Below are positions 35,452 through 46,413 of a DNA stretch of 64,000 bases, piece after piece. Under the pieces are notes generated by a model, which did not search any database, was not told where the DNA came from, and worked only from the letters and a program-made list of their open reading frames with translations. The translations under genes and the position numbers were made by a program. The stretch is from assembly GCF_000269985.1 (NCBI RefSeq), contig NC_016109.1:1116001-1180000 (forward strand), written 5' to 3'. The first letter of the stretch is position 1, and each line of letters starts with the position of its first letter. This DNA comes from Kitasatospora setae KM-6054. GTDB taxonomy: Bacteria; Actinomycetota; Actinomycetes; Streptomycetales; Streptomycetaceae.

Positions 35452-36339
35452 TCAGCCGAAGCGGCCGTTGACGTAGTCGGCGGTGCGCTGGTCGGCGGGA
35501 TCGGTGAAGAGCCGTTCGGTGGGGCCGGATTCGACGATCCGGCCGGGGGTGTCGTGGCTGGCGAGGAAGAACGCGCAGGACTGGGAGACGCGTTGGGCCT
35601 GCTGCATGTTGTGGGTGACGATGACGATGGTGACCCGGTGGCGCAGTTCGGCGATGGTCTCCTCGATCCGGCGGGTGGAGGTCGGGTCGAGAGCGGAGCA
35701 GGGTTCGTCCATCAGCAGGATCTCCGGGGCGACCGCGAGCGAGCGGGCGATGCACAGGCGCTGCTGCTGGCCGCCGGAGAGCGCGCCGCCGGGGGTGCCG
35801 AGGCGGTTGCTGACCTCGTTCCAGAGACCGGCCTGGCGCAGGCTGGACTCGACCAGGTGGTCGCGTTCCTCCCGGGTGGCCTTGATGCCGGCCAGTTTGA
35901 GCCCGCTGACCACGTTGTCGTACAGCGACATGGCGGGGAACGGGTTGGGGCGCTGGAAGACCATGCCGATCCGGCGGCGGACCTCGGCGGGGCGGCGGCC
36001 GGGGGCGTAGACGTCCTCGCCCTCCAGCAGGACCTCGCCGGCCAGCGCGGCGCCGCGCACCATCTCGTGCATCCGGTTGAGGATCCGCAGGTAGGTGGAC
36101 TTGCCGCAGCCGGACGGGCCGATCAGCGCGGTGATCTCGCCGGCCCGCATCGCGAAGGAGACGCGTTCCAGGACCTTGCGCTGGCCGAACCAGGCGGTGA
36201 CGTCGCGGGTCTCCAGGCCGGAGAGCGCGCGTCCCGGTTCCGGGGCGGTGCCGGGGACGGGCGGCAGCGGGATCGTGGGCGGGTCGTCGTGCGCTCCGGC
36301 GTGCTGGACGGGGAAGGGGGGCGGGGCGGTCTCGGTCAT
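35452..36339 (-). CDS. phosphate-type ABC transporter ATPase (PstB-like)
   Basis: This 295-aa ATPase matches PstB: Walker A GPSGCGKSTYLRILNRM, VFQRPNPFPAMSLYDNV, signature LSGGQQQRL, Walker B ILLMDEPCSALDP and HNMQQAQRVS. A Pro-rich tail of about 40 residues precedes the domain. It is the last gene of the six-gene operon starting at 44078. No phoU follows, and only 35 bp separate it from the sortase-like gene. Confidence 0.92.
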   Translation of the reverse strand: MTETAPPPFPVQHAGAHDDPPTIPLPPVPGTAPEPGRALSGLETRDVTAWFGQRKVLERVSFAMRAGEITALIGPSGCGKSTYLRILNRMHEMVRGAALAGEVLLEGEDVYAPGRRPAEVRRRIGMVFQRPNPFPAMSLYDNVVSGLKLAGIKATREERDHLVESSLRQAGLWNEVSNRLGTPGGALSGGQQQRLCIARSLAVAPEILLMDEPCSALDPTSTRRIEETIAELRHRVTIVIVTHNMQQAQRVSQSCAFFLASHDTPGRIVESGPTERLFTDPADQRTADYVNGRFG

Positions 36340-36374: not shown

Positions 36375-37310
36375 TCAGTAGACGTTGGGGAGCAGGGCGG
36401 CGGCGTTCTCGTACACCGACCAGAGCAGGGCGGCGGCGACCGGCGCGAAGCACAGGTAGGCGGCGGAGCGGCGCCAGCGGCGGGCCGTCCAGACGGCCGC
36501 GACGACGGCCAGCAGCAGGGCCAGCGACCAGAGTTGGAGTGCGGACAGGGCGCCCTTGTCGGCGGCCAGCACCTTGTCGGTGGCGGTGGTGGCGGGCCGC
36601 TTGGCGCCGGCCGGTTCGGGGTCGCCGTCGAGCCGGGCGCCGACCAGGACGGTGCTGGTCGGGATCCAGTCGGAGTCGCCGGTGACCAGGACCAGCCGGT
36701 TGGGGGCGGTGTCCTTGATCGGGTGGTCGCCGTCGCCGTAGGTGTTGACGGTGTAGTGGAAGCTGCCCTGGCCGGTGGTGACGTCGATCCGGTCGCCGAC
36801 CTTGAGCCGGCCGAGGTCGGCGAACGGGGCGCCGAACGCGGTGGAGCGGCCGAACAGGACGGCCACGCCGGGCTGTCCGGGCAGCACGGTGTCGCGCCGG
36901 TGGCCGGGGCCGCGCATCAGGTCGCGGCCGGTGGTGCCCTCGACCACGACGGCCTGGCGCAGGTCGAGCGCGGGGATGTCGAGGACGGCCAGCGGCGCGC
37001 CGTCCTCGGTCGGGCCGGTCGGCGCGGTGGCGTTGGCGAGCCGGTCGCGCAGGGTGGCGTAGGCGGTGGACTGGTGCCGGGCCTCCTGGAGGCCGGACAG
37101 GCCCAGCAGGTAGCCGGCGAAGCCGAGCAGCAGCACGGCGGCCAGTGTCACCGCCCGGGCGGCGACCATCAGCGGGCCCGGCGGCGGGGCGGCCGGGGCG
37201 TTGGCCGGGGCCTTCGGATCGGCCTTCGGGTCGGCCTTCGGGTCCGGCCGCGGGGCCGGCGGGGCGCCGGCCGTCGTGGTGGCCGACCGTTCCAGGGCGG
37301 GCGCGGTCAT
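36375..37310 (-). CDS. sortase-fold membrane protein lacking the catalytic residues
   Basis: A 311-aa protein with one N-terminal membrane helix (about 48-72), a sortase-like domain (about 105-226) and two C-terminal helices (about 258-277 and 281-305). The class E-like frame is clear: LAVLDIPALDL, GPGH, TVLPGQPGVAVL, GAPFADLGRLKVGDRI. The catalytic His position is Arg155 (FGRS instead of AGHR). The Cys position is Gly211 (LVLVTGDSDW instead of TLxTC). The C-terminal Arg is also gone (STVLVGA). It therefore cannot be an ordinary transpeptidase. It sits between pstS-like and pstB-like genes, suggesting a structural or binding role in that transporter. Confidence 0.8.
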   Translation of the reverse strand: MTAPALERSATTTAGAPPAPRPDPKADPKADPKAPANAPAAPPPGPLMVAARAVTLAAVLLLGFAGYLLGLSGLQEARHQSTAYATLRDRLANATAPTGPTEDGAPLAVLDIPALDLRQAVVVEGTTGRDLMRGPGHRRDTVLPGQPGVAVLFGRSTAFGAPFADLGRLKVGDRIDVTTGQGSFHYTVNTYGDGDHPIKDTAPNRLVLVTGDSDWIPTSTVLVGARLDGDPEPAGAKRPATTATDKVLAADKGALSALQLWSLALLLAVVAAVWTARRWRRSAAYLCFAPVAAALLWSVYENAAALLPNVY

Positions 37311-37374: not shown

Positions 37375-39177
37375 TCACCGGTTGCCCGCCGTCCGGTCGC
37401 GGCGGCGCCACCAGGCGGCCAGCAGCGGCGGGACGGTGACCACGCCGAGCAGTTCGACGGCGGTGAGCGAGGAGAGCAGCCAGTCCTGCGGGCGGCCGCC
37501 GAGCGCGACCACCTGGGCGGGGGCGGCTCCGCCGCCGCCGTTCGAACCGCCGCCGCCACCGTCGGAGGCGAGCAGTTCGCCGGTCTGCGGGTCGACCACC
37601 GGCTGGCTGCCGTCGCCGGAGCCGGAGCCGGAGCCTCCGGAGGTGCCGGCGCCGGTGCCGGCACCTCCGGAGGCACCGCCGGAGCCGGTGGCGGTGCCGG
37701 TGCCGGAGCCGCCCGAGGTGCCGCCGGTGCCGGAACCGGAGCCGGAACCGCCGGAGGTACCGGAGCCGGAGCCGCTGCCGGTCTTGACCGCCTGGCCGTT
37801 CTGCACGGTGCAGTTGAGCGGGCTGCCGGCCTTGTCGCACGGGGAGGGCTGCGGCGCGTTCTTCAGCACGGTCAGCTCGCCGGCCGAGTTGAACGTCGGG
37901 TTGGGGCAGTTGTTGAGGCTGTTCGGGTCGACGGGGCTGGCGTTGCCGGGGATGTGCTGGGTCTGCAGCAGGCCGCCGCGGACGAGGTTGCGCGGGATCG
38001 GCGAGTAGCCGAGCTCGTCCGCCTCGCCCTGTCCGGCGCACAGCACGTAGGCGAGGTAGCGGCTGAGCGCGTTGCCCTTGGTGTCGTTGAAGCGGGGCGC
38101 CACCGGGAGCGCGGCGCCGGCCCGGGGCACGATCAGGTAGCTGTAGGAGGAGATCGGGTAGGAGCGGGCGTCGTTGTTGCTGTAGACGGCGTCGAGGTTC
38201 TGCTGGAGGTAGTCCGGGTCGTTCGGCGAGGTGTTGTCGTCGACGCCGCGGATCCGGGCGGCGGTCAGCGCCACCGCGACGTTGGAGGCGGTCGGCAGGG
38301 TGTAGTACCCGGCCGGGTTGAGCACCTTGACGACGGGCCAGTTGCTGCGCTTGGCGAACGCGTACTCGTCGTAGCCGATCGCACCGATGCCGGTCGGCGA
38401 CTGGATGTAGCCGGCCACCACGTCGGAGCCGTTCTGCGCGGTCATCCGGCCGGACGGCGGGAAGAACTCGGTGTAGTCGCCGCAGGGGACGCCGTTGACC
38501 CTGGTGCAGTACGCCTCCCACTCGCCCTGGTGGGTGTGCTGCATCCAGCGGGTGAACTGGGCGGTGGCGCCGGAGCCGTCGGAGCGCACCACGGGGGTGA
38601 TCGGGATCTTCGGCAGCGCCTTGCCGTAGTCGGCGGTGATCTTCGGGTCGTCCCAGGAGGTGATCCGGTTGGTGAAGATGCCGACGATGGTGTCCGGGGA
38701 CAGCCGCAGGTCGGTGATCTTCTTGCCGCCGAGCTCCAGGTGGTACATCAGCGCGGTGCCGCCGGCCGTGATCGGCACGTACGAGTAGCCGTACTGCGGG
38801 TTCTCCGCGCCGCCGAGGCCGCCGTTCTGCTTGGTCGGGTCGACGCCGCTGTCGTTCCTGCTGCGGAACGGGACGTCGGAGGCGGTGAAGTCGTCCTGTC
38901 CGGCGGCCCACTGGACCCGGCCGGCCGCCGAGCCGACCGGGTTGAAGTCGATCTCGATGCCCATCGGGCCGACGTCGCGCCGCCACTGGTCGATGGCCGG
39001 GCCGGCCCAGCTGGAGCCGTCGGCGTTCAGCGAGGTCGCGGCGTGCGCGGGGGCCGCGCCGAGCAGCGCGGTGGGCAGGGCCAGCGCGGCGGTGAGCAGT
39101 GCCGAGGCCAGGTGGCGGAGTCGCACGGGACGGGTCTTCCTTCTCTGACGGCGCGGGGTGTCGTTCTGCCGGTTCAT
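37375..39177 (-). CDS. membrane-anchored PstS-like substrate-binding protein
   Basis: A 600-aa exported protein. A signal peptide (cleavage near AHA, about residue 46) precedes a PstS-like domain (about 48-430; SLNADGSSWAGPAIDQWRRD, VRSDGSGATAQFTRWMQ). Then comes a Gly/Ser/Thr repeat linker (about 480-550) and a C-terminal membrane helix with a positive tail (about 575-598), so the binding domain is tethered at the cell surface. Normal PstS is about 370 aa and a lipoprotein. Its ATG overlaps the pstA stop at 39174-39177. Ligand: phosphate or another anion. Confidence 0.85.
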   Translation of the reverse strand: MNRQNDTPRRQRRKTRPVRLRHLASALLTAALALPTALLGAAPAHAATSLNADGSSWAGPAIDQWRRDVGPMGIEIDFNPVGSAAGRVQWAAGQDDFTASDVPFRSRNDSGVDPTKQNGGLGGAENPQYGYSYVPITAGGTALMYHLELGGKKITDLRLSPDTIVGIFTNRITSWDDPKITADYGKALPKIPITPVVRSDGSGATAQFTRWMQHTHQGEWEAYCTRVNGVPCGDYTEFFPPSGRMTAQNGSDVVAGYIQSPTGIGAIGYDEYAFAKRSNWPVVKVLNPAGYYTLPTASNVAVALTAARIRGVDDNTSPNDPDYLQQNLDAVYSNNDARSYPISSYSYLIVPRAGAALPVAPRFNDTKGNALSRYLAYVLCAGQGEADELGYSPIPRNLVRGGLLQTQHIPGNASPVDPNSLNNCPNPTFNSAGELTVLKNAPQPSPCDKAGSPLNCTVQNGQAVKTGSGSGSGTSGGSGSGSGTGGTSGGSGTGTATGSGGASGGAGTGAGTSGGSGSGSGDGSQPVVDPQTGELLASDGGGGGSNGGGGAAPAQVVALGGRPQDWLLSSLTAVELLGVVTVPPLLAAWWRRRDRTAGNR

Positions 39178-40427
39178 CGGGTCTCCACCGCGAGCGCGGT
39201 CGTGGCCAGGGCGGGCGCGGGCTGGGCGCCGCCGATCGGGGCGGTCCGGACCGGGCGGGCCTGGCGCAGCGGGCGCCGGGTGGGCCGGTCGGTGGCGCTG
39301 CGGTGGCGGCCCAGCAGGCGGGCGGTGACGAAGAGCACCAGCACGACGAGCATCAGGGTGAGCGCGCCGGCGAACGCCCGGGCGACCATGTCGGGGTAGG
39401 GCTGCTTGACGTAGTTCCAGATGTACAGCGGCAGGCTGGCCTGGTTGCCGTGCAGCGGGTCGAAGTTCATCCGGGCGGTGAAGCCGGCGGTGAGCAGCAC
39501 CGGGGAGGTCTCGCCGACGCCGCGGGCCATGCCGAGCACCACGGCGGTGGTCAGGCCGGGCCGGGCGGTGGGCAGCACGACGTGCCAGACGGTGCGCCAC
39601 TGACTGGCGCCGAGCGCGTAGGACGCCTCCTTGAGGGTGCCGGGGACGAGCCGGACGACCACCTCGGCGGCGCGGGTGACGATCGGCGTCATCATCACGG
39701 TGAGCGCGAGCGAGGCGGCCAGGCCGCTCTTCTCGGCGCCCAGGGTGAGGATGACCACACCGAGCACGAACAGGCCGGCCACGATGGACGGCAGCGCGGT
39801 CATCGCCTCGACCAGCACCCGGACCGGCTTGACGATCCGGGCGCCGCGCCGGGTGCTGCCGGCCTCGACCAGGAAGACGGCGGTCAGCACGCCGAGCGGC
39901 ACCGAGAACAGGGTGGCCAGGCCGAGCTGTTCGAGCGAGCCGACCACGGCGTGCAGGCAGCCGCCGGAGGTGATCGGCGACAGCGGGGCGGTGGTGCGCA
40001 TGGTCTCGGTGAAGAAGTTCCAGTGCCGGGCGGCGTCGAAGCCGCGCAGCGCGACGTAGCCGATCTGCTCGACGATGACGGCGACCACCAGCAGGCCGGA
40101 GCTCCAGGCCACGGCGGTGGCGAGGCGTTCGCGGACGGTCAGGGCGTCCCACTGGAGCCGGCCGGTGAGGGTGTAGAGCGCCAGGAACAGCAGGTACCAG
40201 CAGAGCAGGAAGCCGAACGCGCCGCTGAACGGCAGCACCCGCTCGTAGAGCAGCCAGTCCAGGCCGAGCGAGCCGGCGCCCGCGCCGAGCATGGTGAGGA
40301 CTTCCTCGCGGGTGGTGCCGCCGAGCTTGATCCGGCGCTGCTCGGGGGGTTCGACCGGCGCGCTGCCGGTGCCGCTGCCGGCGGTGGTGTCGGCGGTAGC
40401 GGTGGTCTCGGGGGGTGTGGGGTGCAT
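39174..40427 (-). CDS. phosphate-type ABC transporter permease (PstA-like)
   Basis: A 417-aa permease longer than typical PstA (about 300 aa). Two extra N-terminal membrane segments (about 45-110) precede the conserved permease core (SLEQLGLATLFSVPLGVLTAVFLVEAG, ALPSIVAGLFVLGVVIL, YALGASQWRTVWHVVLPTARPGLTTAVVLGMARGVGETSPVLL). The C-terminus adds a basic tail. It is 13 bp after the PstC-like gene and overlaps the PstS-like gene by 4 bp. Confidence 0.9.
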   Translation of the reverse strand: MHPTPPETTATADTTAGSGTGSAPVEPPEQRRIKLGGTTREEVLTMLGAGAGSLGLDWLLYERVLPFSGAFGFLLCWYLLFLALYTLTGRLQWDALTVRERLATAVAWSSGLLVVAVIVEQIGYVALRGFDAARHWNFFTETMRTTAPLSPITSGGCLHAVVGSLEQLGLATLFSVPLGVLTAVFLVEAGSTRRGARIVKPVRVLVEAMTALPSIVAGLFVLGVVILTLGAEKSGLAASLALTVMMTPIVTRAAEVVVRLVPGTLKEASYALGASQWRTVWHVVLPTARPGLTTAVVLGMARGVGETSPVLLTAGFTARMNFDPLHGNQASLPLYIWNYVKQPYPDMVARAFAGALTLMLVVLVLFVTARLLGRHRSATDRPTRRPLRQARPVRTAPIGGAQPAPALATTALAVETR

Positions 40428-41549: not shown

Positions 41550-44078
41550 TCAGCCGCGGCGCAGCAGCCGGGACCAGAGCCGCCCGGTGCCGCGGCGGAG
41601 GTTCGCGCCGGCCGGGGTGCCGCCGAGGAACAGCGCGGCGGGGCCGCCGACCAGCAGGACGGCGCCGGTGGCGAGGACGACCGGCAGCAGCAGCCGGGCC
41701 ATCCCGGCCCGGTCGGCCGCGGCCTCCCCGACCGGGGCGGCGGCGAGGCCGGGCGAGGCGCTGCCGCCGGGCTTGGCGGTGGCGGAGGAGGCGGCGGCCG
41801 GGGCGGCGAGCGCGTTGGCGCCGCCCGCGCCGGAGGTGTCGCCGCCGGTGGAGCCGCCGCTGTCGCCGAAGCTGCCGCCGGTGCCGGTGCCGCCGGTGGT
41901 GCCGGAGCCGGTGGAGCCGCCGCCGCTGGTCCCGGAGCCGCTGGTGCCGGAGCCGCCGGCGCCGTTGTCGCCGCCGGTCTCGGCGGGCTTCTCGGGCTTG
42001 CTGCCGTCCTGCGCGGCGACGTGGTCGGCGGCGGCCTTCGCCTGGGCGAGCTGCGGCTTGGTCAGGTCGGCGAAGCCGGCCGCGAGCTGGCCGGGGCCCT
42101 GGCCGTAGACCTGGCCCTGCTCGGTGACGCCGCGGACGAACCGGCTGACCGCGGCGGCCTTGTCCCGGCCGAGGCCGTCGGTGGGCAGCATGGCGTACTG
42201 CACCATGGTCAGCGGGTACGCCTTCGGGTCCTTGGCGTAGGCGGAGTTCTCGTCGTCGTAGGGCAGGCTCTGGGTGCCGGTGGCCTGGTCGAACGGCATG
42301 TCGCGGGCGGCGGCCTGCATGGAGGCGATCGTCGGCGTGGTGAACGCGCCCGCCGGGTTGGGAAGTTCGGCCTCGGGCAGGGCCATCGCCTGGGCGTTGC
42401 CGCTGTCCATCACGGCGAACAGGGCGCGCTTGCCGGTGCTCGGGGCGAAGCACTTGTCGTGCTGGCCGTTGGCGTTGACGTAGGGCAGCTGGCAGGACAG
42501 CTGGTTCTGCAGGGTCATCCGCAGCACCTGGCCGAGGCCGCCGAGCACCGGGTTCCACTCGTACTGCTTGTGGTTGTTCTTGCCGGTGTAGTCGAGGGTC
42601 TGGAACGAGTCGACCGGGTAGCCGGCGTAACCGGGCTTCAGGAACTTGGTGTTGACGTGGGTGCCCCACGGGTCGGGGGAGCCCTGGAGGAACTGCTCGG
42701 CGTCGGGGTCGGCGGCGATCCACTCGGTGAGCCGGTGCACCAGGTCGGTGGTGCCGCCGACCACGACCGGCTCGGTGTTGGCCACGTTGCCGCACTCGGG
42801 CCAGGTCACGCCGGCCGCGACGTCCGCGTTGAGCTTGCGGAACTCCGGGTCGTCGAACATGCAGATCGGGTTGCCGCGGACGGTGTCGGTGTCGTCGTCG
42901 TTGTAGTGCCGGTAGCTCTGGGTGAGCATCTTGGCCAGCAGCCGCTGGTTGAGCCGCAGTCGGCGGACCTGCTGCCGGGTCCGGCCGTCGTCGACCACGT
43001 ACGCCACCGAGACGGCGCTGTTGGCGAGCGGCGCGTAGACGTACGGGCGGGTCGGCGGGTCGGGGTTGGGCAGCGAGGTCAGCGCGACGTCCGCGCCGGA
43101 GCGGCGCAGGAAGGCGCCGCGGGCCTGCGGTTCGCCGTTGCCGACGCTGTACTGCACGCGCAGCGGGTCGGCCGCCAGGCAGCTGCCGGTGCGCCACTGC
43201 TGCATGGCGCGGTCGGCCATCTCCAGGCCGATCGCGGAGAACGCGGCGTCGCCGGCGGTGCAGGAGTCGGGGGTCGGCGCGAACTGCAGCGGGATGGTGA
43301 CGTGCCGCTTCCAGGCGCAGGACTCGCCGGGCAGCAGGCCGTTGGGCTTCAGCTGGAAGGAGCCGTCGGTGGCGGTGTTGAAGATGAAGCCGTCCATGTC
43401 GATCGAGTGGTCGTCGCAGTTGATGACCAGATCGGGGAAGCTGTTGGCGCCGATCGAGTCGCCGCCGTAGTTCGGCTCCACCACCAGCGAGCACTTGTGG
43501 GTGTTGTCGCAGTTCAGGCCCTGGCTCTGCTGGGCGGTCCAGAGCTCGATGTCGGCCTCGCCGGTGCCGTCCGGGCGGGTCGCGGCGATCACCATGTTGG
43601 ACGGGAACTCGGGGGCCGGTCCGGCGGCCGGCTCCGGCTGCAGGAAGCCCTTGGCCGGGTCACCGCCGTACAGGGTGGAGCCGTAGCAGTCGGTGATGTC
43701 CGGGTTGTCGCCGCGGCACTGGTAGATCCGGACGGCGTAGAAGGCGTCCTTGATCATCGGCTGGACGAACTGGACCGGCTGGCCGTAGAGGTCGACGGTC
43801 GGCGTGAAACCGGTCCAACTGACGTGCACCACCTGGTTCCTGAGGTCGCCGACCTGCGAGACGGTGATGGTGCCCTTCGGGCCGTCCTGCCAGGTGTTCG
43901 GGTCGAACCGGGCCGGGCCCTCCACGGTCGTGCCCCCGGCCGCCGACGCGGGCTGCACGCCCGGCCCGCCGAGCGGCAGGAACACGACGGCGGCGGCCAC
44001 CGTCCAGGTCAGCACGGCGGCCAGGTAGGCCCTCCACGGACGCGATCCGGCTCTCAGCCCTGACGGGCGGATTCTCAT
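41550..44078 (-). CDS. large secreted PBP-like surface protein with C-terminal anchor
   Basis: An 842-aa exported protein, the first gene of the Pst-like operon. A signal peptide ends near ASAA (about residue 47). The middle 650 residues contain PstS-superfamily-like features (LVINCDDHSIDMDGFIFN, RRSGADVALTSLPNPDPPTRPYVYAPLANSAVSVAYVV, NKFLKPGYAGYPVDSFQ-like segments) and many Cys residues. A Gly/Ser/Thr linker (about 690-745) leads to a C-terminal membrane helix (about 795-820) and an Arg-rich tail. It looks like a second, larger tethered binding protein. Function is unknown beyond that. Confidence 0.75.
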   Translation of the reverse strand: MRIRPSGLRAGSRPWRAYLAAVLTWTVAAAVVFLPLGGPGVQPASAAGGTTVEGPARFDPNTWQDGPKGTITVSQVGDLRNQVVHVSWTGFTPTVDLYGQPVQFVQPMIKDAFYAVRIYQCRGDNPDITDCYGSTLYGGDPAKGFLQPEPAAGPAPEFPSNMVIAATRPDGTGEADIELWTAQQSQGLNCDNTHKCSLVVEPNYGGDSIGANSFPDLVINCDDHSIDMDGFIFNTATDGSFQLKPNGLLPGESCAWKRHVTIPLQFAPTPDSCTAGDAAFSAIGLEMADRAMQQWRTGSCLAADPLRVQYSVGNGEPQARGAFLRRSGADVALTSLPNPDPPTRPYVYAPLANSAVSVAYVVDDGRTRQQVRRLRLNQRLLAKMLTQSYRHYNDDDTDTVRGNPICMFDDPEFRKLNADVAAGVTWPECGNVANTEPVVVGGTTDLVHRLTEWIAADPDAEQFLQGSPDPWGTHVNTKFLKPGYAGYPVDSFQTLDYTGKNNHKQYEWNPVLGGLGQVLRMTLQNQLSCQLPYVNANGQHDKCFAPSTGKRALFAVMDSGNAQAMALPEAELPNPAGAFTTPTIASMQAAARDMPFDQATGTQSLPYDDENSAYAKDPKAYPLTMVQYAMLPTDGLGRDKAAAVSRFVRGVTEQGQVYGQGPGQLAAGFADLTKPQLAQAKAAADHVAAQDGSKPEKPAETGGDNGAGGSGTSGSGTSGGGSTGSGTTGGTGTGGSFGDSGGSTGGDTSGAGGANALAAPAAASSATAKPGGSASPGLAAAPVGEAAADRAGMARLLLPVVLATGAVLLVGGPAALFLGGTPAGANLRRGTGRLWSRLLRRG

Positions 44079-44481: not shown

Positions 44482-45066
44482 TCAGGAGGCGGGCGTGTAG
44501 GCCACGTTGAAGGTGCCGACGCTCTGGCCCGCGACGAAGAAGTCGGTGCGCAGCTTGGTGTTCAGGTACTGGGCGCCCGCGGCGTCCAGCACCAGCGAGT
44601 CCGAGCTCAGGTTCTGCGTGGTGCCGGTGTAGTTGAAGGAGTTGTTGCCGGCCGGGTCGAACAGCGCGACCGGGGTGGTGGAGCCGTCCGGCACCGCGGT
44701 GACCGCCCAGTCGTCGAAGGAGAAGGACAGCTGGTGGAAGGTGACCGCACGGCCGGTCTTCGCGTCGACGAAGAGCAGGCCGCCGCCGAGCGCGACGTGG
44801 CCGAAGAAGTCGCGGATGCTGCCGGTGCCGTCGGTCACCGGGAAGCTCGCGGACAGGCCGCTGGCCGCGTCGTAGCCCGCGGTCGCGGTGGGCAGCGGGA
44901 CGGCCACGATGCCGGCCTCGGCGGCCTGCTGGAAGAACGCGTTGCTCTCGTGGATCACCGCGCTGCCGGCCGCCGGGGCGGCGGAGGCGGTGGTGGCGGA
45001 GGCGGCGGTGGCGATGAGCGCGAGGCCGGCGGCCGCAGCGGCGATCCGGACGGTGAGACGGGACAT
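44482..45066 (-). CDS. secreted protein of unknown function, 194 aa
   Basis: A 194-aa exported protein: signal peptide with cleavage near ASA (about residue 29), then a beta-rich domain (VTDGTGSIRDFFGHVALGGGLLFVDAKTGRAVTFHQLSFSFDDW is its core, read over two strands). There is no anchor or Cys pair. AAGGAG precedes the ATG. It lies between the Pst-like operon and a free PstS-like gene, each with its own terminator, so it is a separate transcription unit, perhaps functionally linked. Confidence 0.8.
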   Translation of the reverse strand: MSRLTVRIAAAAAGLALIATAASATTASAAPAAGSAVIHESNAFFQQAAEAGIVAVPLPTATAGYDAASGLSASFPVTDGTGSIRDFFGHVALGGGLLFVDAKTGRAVTFHQLSFSFDDWAVTAVPDGSTTPVALFDPAGNNSFNYTGTTQNLSSDSLVLDAAGAQYLNTKLRTDFFVAGQSVGTFNVAYTPAS

Positions 45067-45390: not shown

Positions 45391-46413
45391 TCAGCTGGTC
45401 AGGCCACAGGCGGCGGCCGGCAGGGTCAGGTAGCCGTAGTTCGCGATGGCGGCCTTGCCGGGGGTGGAGCAGATGTAGCCGGTCGGGCCGAAGATCGCGC
45501 GCAGCGCGGTGCTCTGGGTGGTCGCCGGGCTGGCGTTCCACTCGGCGGCGCGGACCACGTTGTTGAGCACGCGGCCGTAGGTCGGGTTGGCGAAGGCGGC
45601 GTTCAGGGCGCCGGCGGTGGTCAGCGGGGCGACACCGTTGATGCTGCGCAGGGTCAGGTTGCCCTTGTTGTCGGTCGCGGTGACGTGGCCGTTGGCCTGG
45701 CCCACCCAGTGGCCGGCGGAGTACGGGAAGATGACGTCCGCGGTCTGCAGCGCGGCGTCGGTGCCCTCGTTCTCCTCCGGGGTGTAGGTCTGGACGCAGG
45801 AGCCCAGGGTCGGGTTGCCGATGGCGCCCAGGAAGAAGGAGCGGGTGCCGGAGCTCAGCTGGGGCAGGTAGGGCTTGATCGTGCCGGCGGAGCCGCCGAA
45901 GTTCGACCAGTCGGTCTTGCCGACCTTGCAGGAGTAGATGTCGTTGAGGTCCTGGGTGGTCAGGTTCGCCGGGGCGAGGCCGCCGCTCGGGGCCGACCAG
46001 GTCACCGCGTCCTTGGCGAACGCCACGAACAGGATGGTGGACGGGTCGCTGGCCGAGCGGGGGCGGGAGGAGCGGGCGAAGTCCAGGGTCGCGCTGGTGT
46101 TGGCGTTGAGCGCCGAGATGCCGGCGCCGGAGCCGTTCGGGCGCAGGATGGTGCTGGCGCCGGTCTTCGGGGTGATCGAGCTGGAGCCGGTGGCGTCCCA
46201 GCTGTACAGGTGCGGCGTGGTGGCCGGGATGGTGGCGTTGTAGTCGCTGGAGAGCTGGTTGAGCAGAGCCTGCGTGGTGTCCGAACCCGCACCGACGATG
46301 TCCTGGGCGGCGGGGGTAACGGTCGGGTCGGCCATCGCCGGGACCGAGACGGTCGCGAGGGCGGCAGTGGTCATCGCGAGAGCCGCGAACGCCTTGGCAG
46401 CGGTGTGACGCAT
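45391..46413 (-). CDS. secreted PstS-like protein (unanchored)
   Basis: A 340-aa exported protein related to phosphate-binding proteins: signal peptide ending near AMA (about residue 28), then DIVGAGSDTTQALLNQLSSDYN, RPNGSGAGISALN, LDFARSSRPRSASDPSTILFVAFAKDAVTWSAP and LTTQDLNDIYSCKVG. There is no lipobox or C-terminal anchor, so it is released. GGAGGAACAG precedes the ATG. The presence of phosphate-type ABC genes downstream suggests a soluble third binding protein, though an extracellular role unrelated to transport is possible. Confidence 0.85.
   Translation of the reverse strand: MRHTAAKAFAALAMTTAALATVSVPAMADPTVTPAAQDIVGAGSDTTQALLNQLSSDYNATIPATTPHLYSWDATGSSSITPKTGASTILRPNGSGAGISALNANTSATLDFARSSRPRSASDPSTILFVAFAKDAVTWSAPSGGLAPANLTTQDLNDIYSCKVGKTDWSNFGGSAGTIKPYLPQLSSGTRSFFLGAIGNPTLGSCVQTYTPEENEGTDAALQTADVIFPYSAGHWVGQANGHVTATDNKGNLTLRSINGVAPLTTAGALNAAFANPTYGRVLNNVVRAAEWNASPATTQSTALRAIFGPTGYICSTPGKAAIANYGYLTLPAAACGLTS

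Follow-up and report, generated by a model that had tools for sequence, protein, structure and literature searches.

The window analyzed here is a stretch of 64,000 nucleotides from the 8.78-Mb genome of Kitasatospora setae KM-6054 (NC_016109.1, positions 1,116,001 to 1,180,000), and positions are counted from its first letter. Its minus strand carries a same-strand operon in the order BigS, PstC, PstA, PstS, pseudo-sortase, and PstB, with genes for two secreted proteins upstream. Sortases are the enzymes that staple proteins to the bacterial wall and are studied as drug targets; the sortase-fold protein of this operon, P0002, lies between PstS and PstB.

45391..46413, minus strand: secreted binding-protein-like gene (GSDTT type), upstream; open reading frame assigned by eye
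44482..45066, minus strand: secreted 194-aa protein, conserved upstream of BigS; no Pfam match over cut-off
41550..44078, minus strand: BigS; beta-rich N-terminal part, PstS fold, disordered linker, C-terminal hydrophobic helix and a further helix
40441..41457, minus strand: PstC-like permease; TIGR02138 258.2 bits (cut-off 196.45); start by eye
39174..40427, minus strand: PstA-like permease, its end overlapping the PstS start by 4 bp; TIGR00974 216.8 bits (cut-off 193.45)
37375..39177, minus strand: PstS-like binding protein with signal peptide, Gly-rich linker, and C-terminal hydrophobic helix; PF12849 6.6e-31 (PBP_like_2 passes), TIGR00975 147.5 (cut-off 205)
36375..37310, minus strand: pseudo-sortase P0002, 311 aa; N-terminal helix, sortase-fold domain, two C-terminal helices, terminus LLPNVY
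35452..36339, minus strand: PstB-like ATPase, directly downstream of the pseudo-sortase; TIGR00972 336.5 bits (cut-off 343.2); start by eye

A second Pst-like transporter

The transporter genes resemble those of the PstSCAB phosphate importer, PstC and PstA exceeding the curated cut-offs and PstB (a near miss) and PstS being close relatives below them. Unlike in PstSCAB, the window PstS has no lipobox that could be recognized by eye and ends in a membrane anchor made of a hydrophobic helix and a basic tail, and the operon has two extra components, the PstS-fold protein BigS and the pseudo-sortase. BigS has no Pfam family. Its AlphaFold2 model, made without Met1, has a pLDDT of 77.8, and the binding-protein part aligns with PstS (VIA Z up to 32.0). 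Elsewhere in the genome, at 4.808 Mb, lie genes for a canonical PstC and a canonical PstS, the latter with a lipobox-like LSLSAC sequence. That the window operon imports phosphate is a guess from homology. Scanning the window with a PHO-box consensus gave 11 matches, all with 3 mismatches (mean of 4.85 in shuffled sequences; 0 of 100 shuffles reached 11). Three of them lie in the operon, two of these at gene boundaries; none is convincing, and we do not read them as PHO boxes.

P0002 has a predicted sortase fold and lacks the catalytic residues

37035..37175, minus strand: N-terminal helix, residues 46-92, membrane part and stalk; AlphaFold2 helix, membrane placement predicted
36627..36998, minus strand: sortase-fold domain, residues 105-228; AlphaFold2 strands, VIA Z 18.8 (best) and 17.5 (SrtE1)
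36897..36899, minus strand: codon of Arg138, aligned with the substrate-contacting Tyr229 of SrtE1 (S3 subsite); alignment to 5cuw, co-variation with DPxTG
36846..36848, minus strand: codon of Arg155, at the catalytic His position (SrtE1 His251); R 110 and K 5 of 115 ungapped degenerate proteins, H in 22/22 intact ones
36678..36680, minus strand: codon of Gly211, at the catalytic Cys position (SrtE1 Cys320); A, G, S, T, or V in 116/116 degenerate proteins, C in 22/22 intact ones
36396..36554, minus strand: C-terminal helix pair, residues 253-305 (253-278 and 281-305), with the basic loop ARRWRRS between them; AlphaFold2 helices

P0002 matches the Pfam family Sortase (PF04203) with 52.1 bits (6.9e-14; cut-off 26.6). 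The best NCBIfam subfamily is class E sortase NF033747, but the score of 71 bits is below the cut-off of 160; the same model gives 129.9 (below) and 188.3 (above) for L137 and L132, two intact relatives with a C-terminal tail like that of P0002. In the AlphaFold2 model of P0002 (pLDDT 88.3, pTM 0.79), a long helix at the N terminus is followed by a beta-rich domain and a pair of C-terminal helices. When the domain was compared with solved structures (VIA), sortases were the best matches, with a top Z of 18.8 and a Z of 17.5 for SrtE1 (5cuw; rmsd 2.1, 129 residues). P0002 thus shares with the class E sortases SrtE1 and SrtE2 of Streptomyces the fold, the N-terminal helix, the GPGH and PGxxG motifs, and the best NCBIfam subfamily, and differs from them by the absence of His, Cys, and Arg, the replacement of Tyr229, the low subfamily score, the two-helix C-terminal tail, and the Pst-like operon. 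In the alignment, Arg155 takes the place of the catalytic His, Gly211 that of the Cys in the TLxTC strand of class E, and a Thr stands in the column of the active-site Arg. The preliminary description of this DNA had read P0002 as a class E frame with all three catalytic positions replaced and had called for structure prediction and alignment with class E sortases; both bear this reading out.

The substitutions are not particular to P0002. Among 138 distinct loci inspected, which are distinct proteins and not independent events, 116 encode a degenerate protein and 22 a protein with both His and Cys; no protein has one of these residues alone. The His position of the degenerate proteins is occupied by Arg (110) or Lys (5), with a gap in the truncated copy L088, and the Cys position by Ala (50), Gly (43), Ser (18), Thr (4), or Val (1). 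Because an automatic search for a retained active-site Arg was unreliable (of the six degenerate proteins it returned, L131 was real, L032, L054, L130, and L206 were false by eye, and L229 was ambiguous), this residue was counted only in the 26 degenerate rows aligned, some of which are the same place fetched twice. It is kept only in the early-branching L131, where His is replaced by Arg and Cys by Ser. For comparison, in class F sortases of actinobacteria the Arg is exchanged for Asn and both His and Cys are retained, according to an excerpt of PMC6998099. Since the substitutions recur throughout the clade, in 116 distinct proteins, they are due neither to chance nor to a sequencing error, and recent decay can be rejected as well. 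Their conservation in orthologues, which the preliminary description had left to be checked, therefore holds. P0002 keeps its fold, has lost its catalytic residues, and shares both traits with its orthologues, as expected of a pseudoenzyme.

Could P0002 still be an enzyme with another chemistry, another pocket residue having taken over, such as Arg155 together with a nearby Thr or His137? In favor of this, conservation of the domain is high, with His137 in 105 of 115 degenerate proteins and Arg or Lys at position 155 in 115/115, and some pseudoenzymes may have migrated catalytic residues (PMC10211241, in part). However, a relocated Cys nucleophile can be rejected, as none of 115 degenerate proteins has a Cys anywhere in the aligned sortase domain, and the former Cys position varies among five residues. 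His137 is present in 22/22 intact rows as well and therefore looks structural. Conservation in the degenerate domain exceeds 90% for no Ser or Asp. It does so for two Thr, one Glu, two Gln, and Arg205; both Thr residues are shared with intact relatives (6/22 and 18/22). We consider a new chemistry very unlikely.

A second alternative is that the sortase domain is a passive remnant and that the three helices act by stabilizing the membrane-embedded PstC and PstA. Few stretches are as well conserved as the LLPN at the end of the tail, and P290, L306, L307, P308, and N309 are invariant in a 36-row alignment. Yet the pocket frame is conserved as much as the tail, with G125, G136, P144, G145, and F163 kept in 62/62 thinned degenerate rows, and the His position remains restricted to Arg or Lys. 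We would expect more drift in a remnant, which makes this alternative unlikely.

Relatives and the order of events

Relatives were collected in four sets: 61 genomes including that of K. setae, 50 of them with a match at an E-value of 1e-5 or below, intact sortases among them; contigs of GTDB genomes with 32 loci, one of which was a chance match (L065, 22 residues) and was dropped; 396 genomes of the phylum; and 394 genomes of the class. Matches were found in 223 of the 396 phylum genomes, and many of these are, by coverage, tailless sortases, which lie outside the neighborhood counts given below. The 22 intact rows are the ones that were fetched, and intact neighborhoods are known for these alone. 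The degenerate form occurs in 14 families of the class by inspected loci, with a fifteenth indicated by an uninspected fragment (G496).

The preliminary description had also taken the two C-terminal helices for a gain of the dead enzyme. The helices are present in the model of P0002 (253-278 and 281-305), but a two-helix tail ending in LLP is also found in intact relatives such as L132, L133, L135, L137, and L139, so that part of the claim does not stand. By profile coverage, 12 of the 22 intact rows reach the tail (L132, L133, L135-L143, and L153); all 12 keep His, Cys, and Arg, and the tail would therefore be older than the loss of catalysis. L064, from the Acidimicrobiia, is intact, too, and has a tail visible by eye. 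These intact tailed sortases share the tail with P0002 and differ from it in keeping the catalytic residues and in their surroundings: 0/12 are next to Pst genes, and several are next to genes that look by eye like cytochrome c maturation genes.

In a tree of 84 rows and 134 columns, from which the His and Cys columns were left out, one branch with a support of 97/90 parts 62 degenerate from 22 intact proteins, and the split was recovered in 96% of 200 bootstrap trees. The tree contains one long row (L134) and is unrooted, a midpoint root serving for drawing only; hence, the dead proteins form a clade only with a root on the intact side, which an enzyme-first history would require. The simplest reading of the sequences is that the tail came first and that catalysis was lost later and once, although an unrooted split does not demonstrate a single loss.

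The gene appears to be maintained. NG86 dN/dS ratios are 0.40 to 0.62 over 8 pairs, with codon bias uncorrected. A decaying pseudogene that hitch-hikes in the operon would account for the loss of all catalytic residues and for the one truncated copy, but it is highly improbable given the spread over 14 families of the class, the invariant residues, these dN/dS ratios, and the close co-occurrence with BigS described below. The truncated copy (L088:7901-8440, in a genome of the genus Kitasatospora) has only the C-terminal half of the pseudo-sortase in open frame and is probably broken. A mobile origin of the locus is unsupported: there were no phage matches, and the one partial match (36.8% over 36% of the query) is to an 11.85-Mb Nonomuraea record of the plasmid collection.

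Linkage to Pst genes and BigS

As the preliminary description had noted, P0002 is encoded inside a transporter operon, and this arrangement is conserved. With Pst genes called by fixed identity limits, at least one was found at 112 of the 116 degenerate loci versus 0 of the 22 intact loci. All four Pst genes are present at 62 of the 112 linked loci and PstB alone at 27, the latter in part because the stretch is short. The four degenerate loci without a Pst gene (L191, L194, L195, and L221) are near contig ends, and three of them have a BigS, binding-protein, or WxLIP-like gene; L191 has none. In genus g272, no PstB was present in the stretch examined at L185, L190, L191, and L194. Not one of the 112 Pst-linked degenerate proteins keeps the His or the Cys; orthologues in the same operon with His, Cys, and Arg, which had been named as the finding that would speak against a pseudo-sortase, were thus not encountered. 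Across the class, a noncatalytic sortase fold goes together with a Pst-like transporter operon.

The gene order of the window recurs in most first-copy loci of 18 kb from Kitasatospora and Streptacidiphilus, and relatives of the GSDTT type lie upstream in six orthologous loci (L040, L042, L048, L054, L060, and L061). Weak PstB matches (26-30%) beside intact sortases were rejected as another ABC ATPase in what looks by eye like a cytochrome c maturation neighborhood. The intact tailed sortases L132, L135, and L137 adjoin genes that resemble, by eye, those for cytochrome c maturation.

The pseudo-sortase and BigS occur together. In the 394 genomes of the class, 49 have both, 3 have the pseudo-sortase only, 4 have BigS only, and 338 have neither, at E-value limits of 1e-30 for the pseudo-sortase and 1e-20 for BigS (Fisher p 6e-54, relatedness uncorrected). 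Of the 65 places found in the class, G496, G557, G729, and G775 were unfetched, and G496, G729, and G775 were counted as degenerate by match alone; five inspected genomes with intact proteins (G465, G474, G685, G720, and G779) were excluded from the count. Both genes are kept in the small genomes of family f7 (L075, L181, L196, and L197; 1.0-1.7 Mb, completeness 60 to 100%).

A DPxTG motif in the PstS linkers

37579..37596, minus strand: VDPQTG motif in the PstS linker; DPxTG in 58/85 linkers, 1.4 expected by shuffling

Despite a Gly-rich composition and variable length, 58 of 85 PstS linkers contain DPxTG, preceded by Ile or Val in 55 of the 58. The linkers are related, so these cases do not count as independent. 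From the start of the motif to the PstS C terminus, the distance is 53 to 121 residues, mostly 65 to 100; the usual sortase signal sits nearer the membrane helix. The sequence L[PA]xTG occurs in 1 of 85 PstS linkers and not in the window PstS; the C termini of BigS and other proteins were viewed by eye only. Other lineages have YDxxG-type sequences near the place of DPxTG (by eye).

In the sequence alignment to 5cuw, the gHy of SrtE1 pairs with the gHr of P0002, which places Arg138 at Tyr229, a residue of the S3 subsite for which contact with the sorting signal has been proposed (PMC5148588, in part). This column contains Tyr (17) or Phe (4) in 21 of the 22 intact relatives and, in 62 thinned degenerate rows, Arg (32), Leu (11), Gln (9), Val (5), Ser (2), Glu (2), or another residue (1). 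Two neighboring columns, 91 (Arg138) and 92 (Arg139), were tested against DPxTG ahead of a wider screen, column 91 having been chosen because of Tyr229; the assignment was checked on 5cuw afterwards and held. Arg138 is present in 50 of 58 loci with DPxTG and in 8 of 26 without it. Over 7 phylogenetically independent pairs, a mean of 4.1 changed the same way and 0.1 the opposite way, which is not significant by a sign test (median p 0.125), and Arg139 had no association with the motif (0.5 against 0.3 of 7 pairs). In the screen of 419 column-residue traits, Arg138 ranked first (4.09), closely followed by the second (4.00). The co-variation of DPxTG with the Tyr229-aligned residue is suggestive.

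These data also bear on a possible decoy function, in which P0002 would bind the substrates of the cell's active class E sortases and so regulate these enzymes. The K. setae genome encodes six further sortases that exceed the Pfam cut-off, all with His and Cys and three of class E type by eye, and other families include inactive paralogues by which the active ones are regulated, as an excerpt of PMC5201418 describes. However, the genetic partners of P0002 are the Pst and BigS genes, the class E signal contact at Tyr229 is replaced, and the L[PA]xTG signal is nearly absent from the linked PstS linkers. A decoy function is quite unlikely, and we prefer a role of P0002 within its own operon.

Proposed role of P0002

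We hypothesize, at a probability of roughly 0.6, that P0002 is a conserved pseudoenzyme that would act as a non-catalytic membrane subunit and dock tail-anchored PstS-type proteins on the Pst-like ABC importer. That the sortase fold has been reused is well supported by the comparison of sequences, and it was probably reused as a membrane docking part. A binding or scaffolding role is the most likely one in light of the operon position, the co-occurrence with BigS, the rewired pocket, and the suggestive co-variation with the linker motif.

The proposed history and mechanism would be as follows. A class-E-type sortase with a two-helix tail would have lost His, Cys, and Arg in one part of the Actinomycetota. 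The dead sortase would then have become a dedicated subunit of a second, Pst-like importer composed of PstC, PstA, PstB, and two or three PstS-fold or PBP-like proteins. P0002 presumably resides in the membrane with its sortase domain outside the cell, a topology that we infer from the N-terminal helix and from the positive charge of the loop that joins the two C-terminal helices. Its former substrate groove, with Arg or Lys at the His site, may serve as a noncovalent docking site, and the docked PstS and BigS would be held next to the PstC-PstA channel in a putative complex.

We can tentatively go one step further. The groove, which in the enzymes cuts LAxTG, might have turned into a noncovalent receptor for a charge-swapped [IV]DPxTG in the PstS linker and might so dock the tail-anchored PstS on the importer, Arg138 and Arg155 facing the Asp. 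DPxTG is absent from 27 of 85 PstS linkers despite the presence of a pseudo-sortase and therefore is not a universal ligand; in lineages that lack the motif, a different peptide or partner would occupy the groove. This more specific model is possible, and we regard it as doubtful.

Our search of open-access papers turned up no account of a sortase family that has lost catalysis or of a sortase tied to Pst genes. A survey of the sortase superfamily (Malik and Kim 2019), cited in an excerpt of PMC10924467, may mention such proteins. If our hypothesis is true, the groove of a sortase can be reused as a receptor, and Pst-type transport in actinobacteria has an unexpected additional subunit. Database users can be misled at present, as Pfam names P0002 a sortase with a score above the cut-off. 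Moreover, the degenerate clade, L131 with His and Cys gone and Arg kept, and the intact tailed relatives form a natural series for the transition from an enzyme to a binding protein.

Sister operons

WxL and WxL-interacting protein systems are systems of the Firmicutes. In operons that are sisters of the one described here, including second copies in Kitasatospora and Streptacidiphilus, the pseudo-sortase is preceded by BigS, binding-protein, and WxLIP-like genes and usually followed by PstB. Sister operons of other actinobacteria resemble the Firmicutes systems in carrying genes with weak matches to WxLIP_PGBD beside genes for Ig-like secreted proteins; no WxLIP-like genes were seen in the window operon. 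The WxLIP_PGBD matches range from 1.6e-6 to 5.9e-5 (L063:7032-8126, L125:6538-7473, L127:15676-16602, and L145:16940-18643), that of L127 being just over the Pfam cut-off and the others just below it. The sister operons may thus encode a WxL-type surface system in Actinomycetota.
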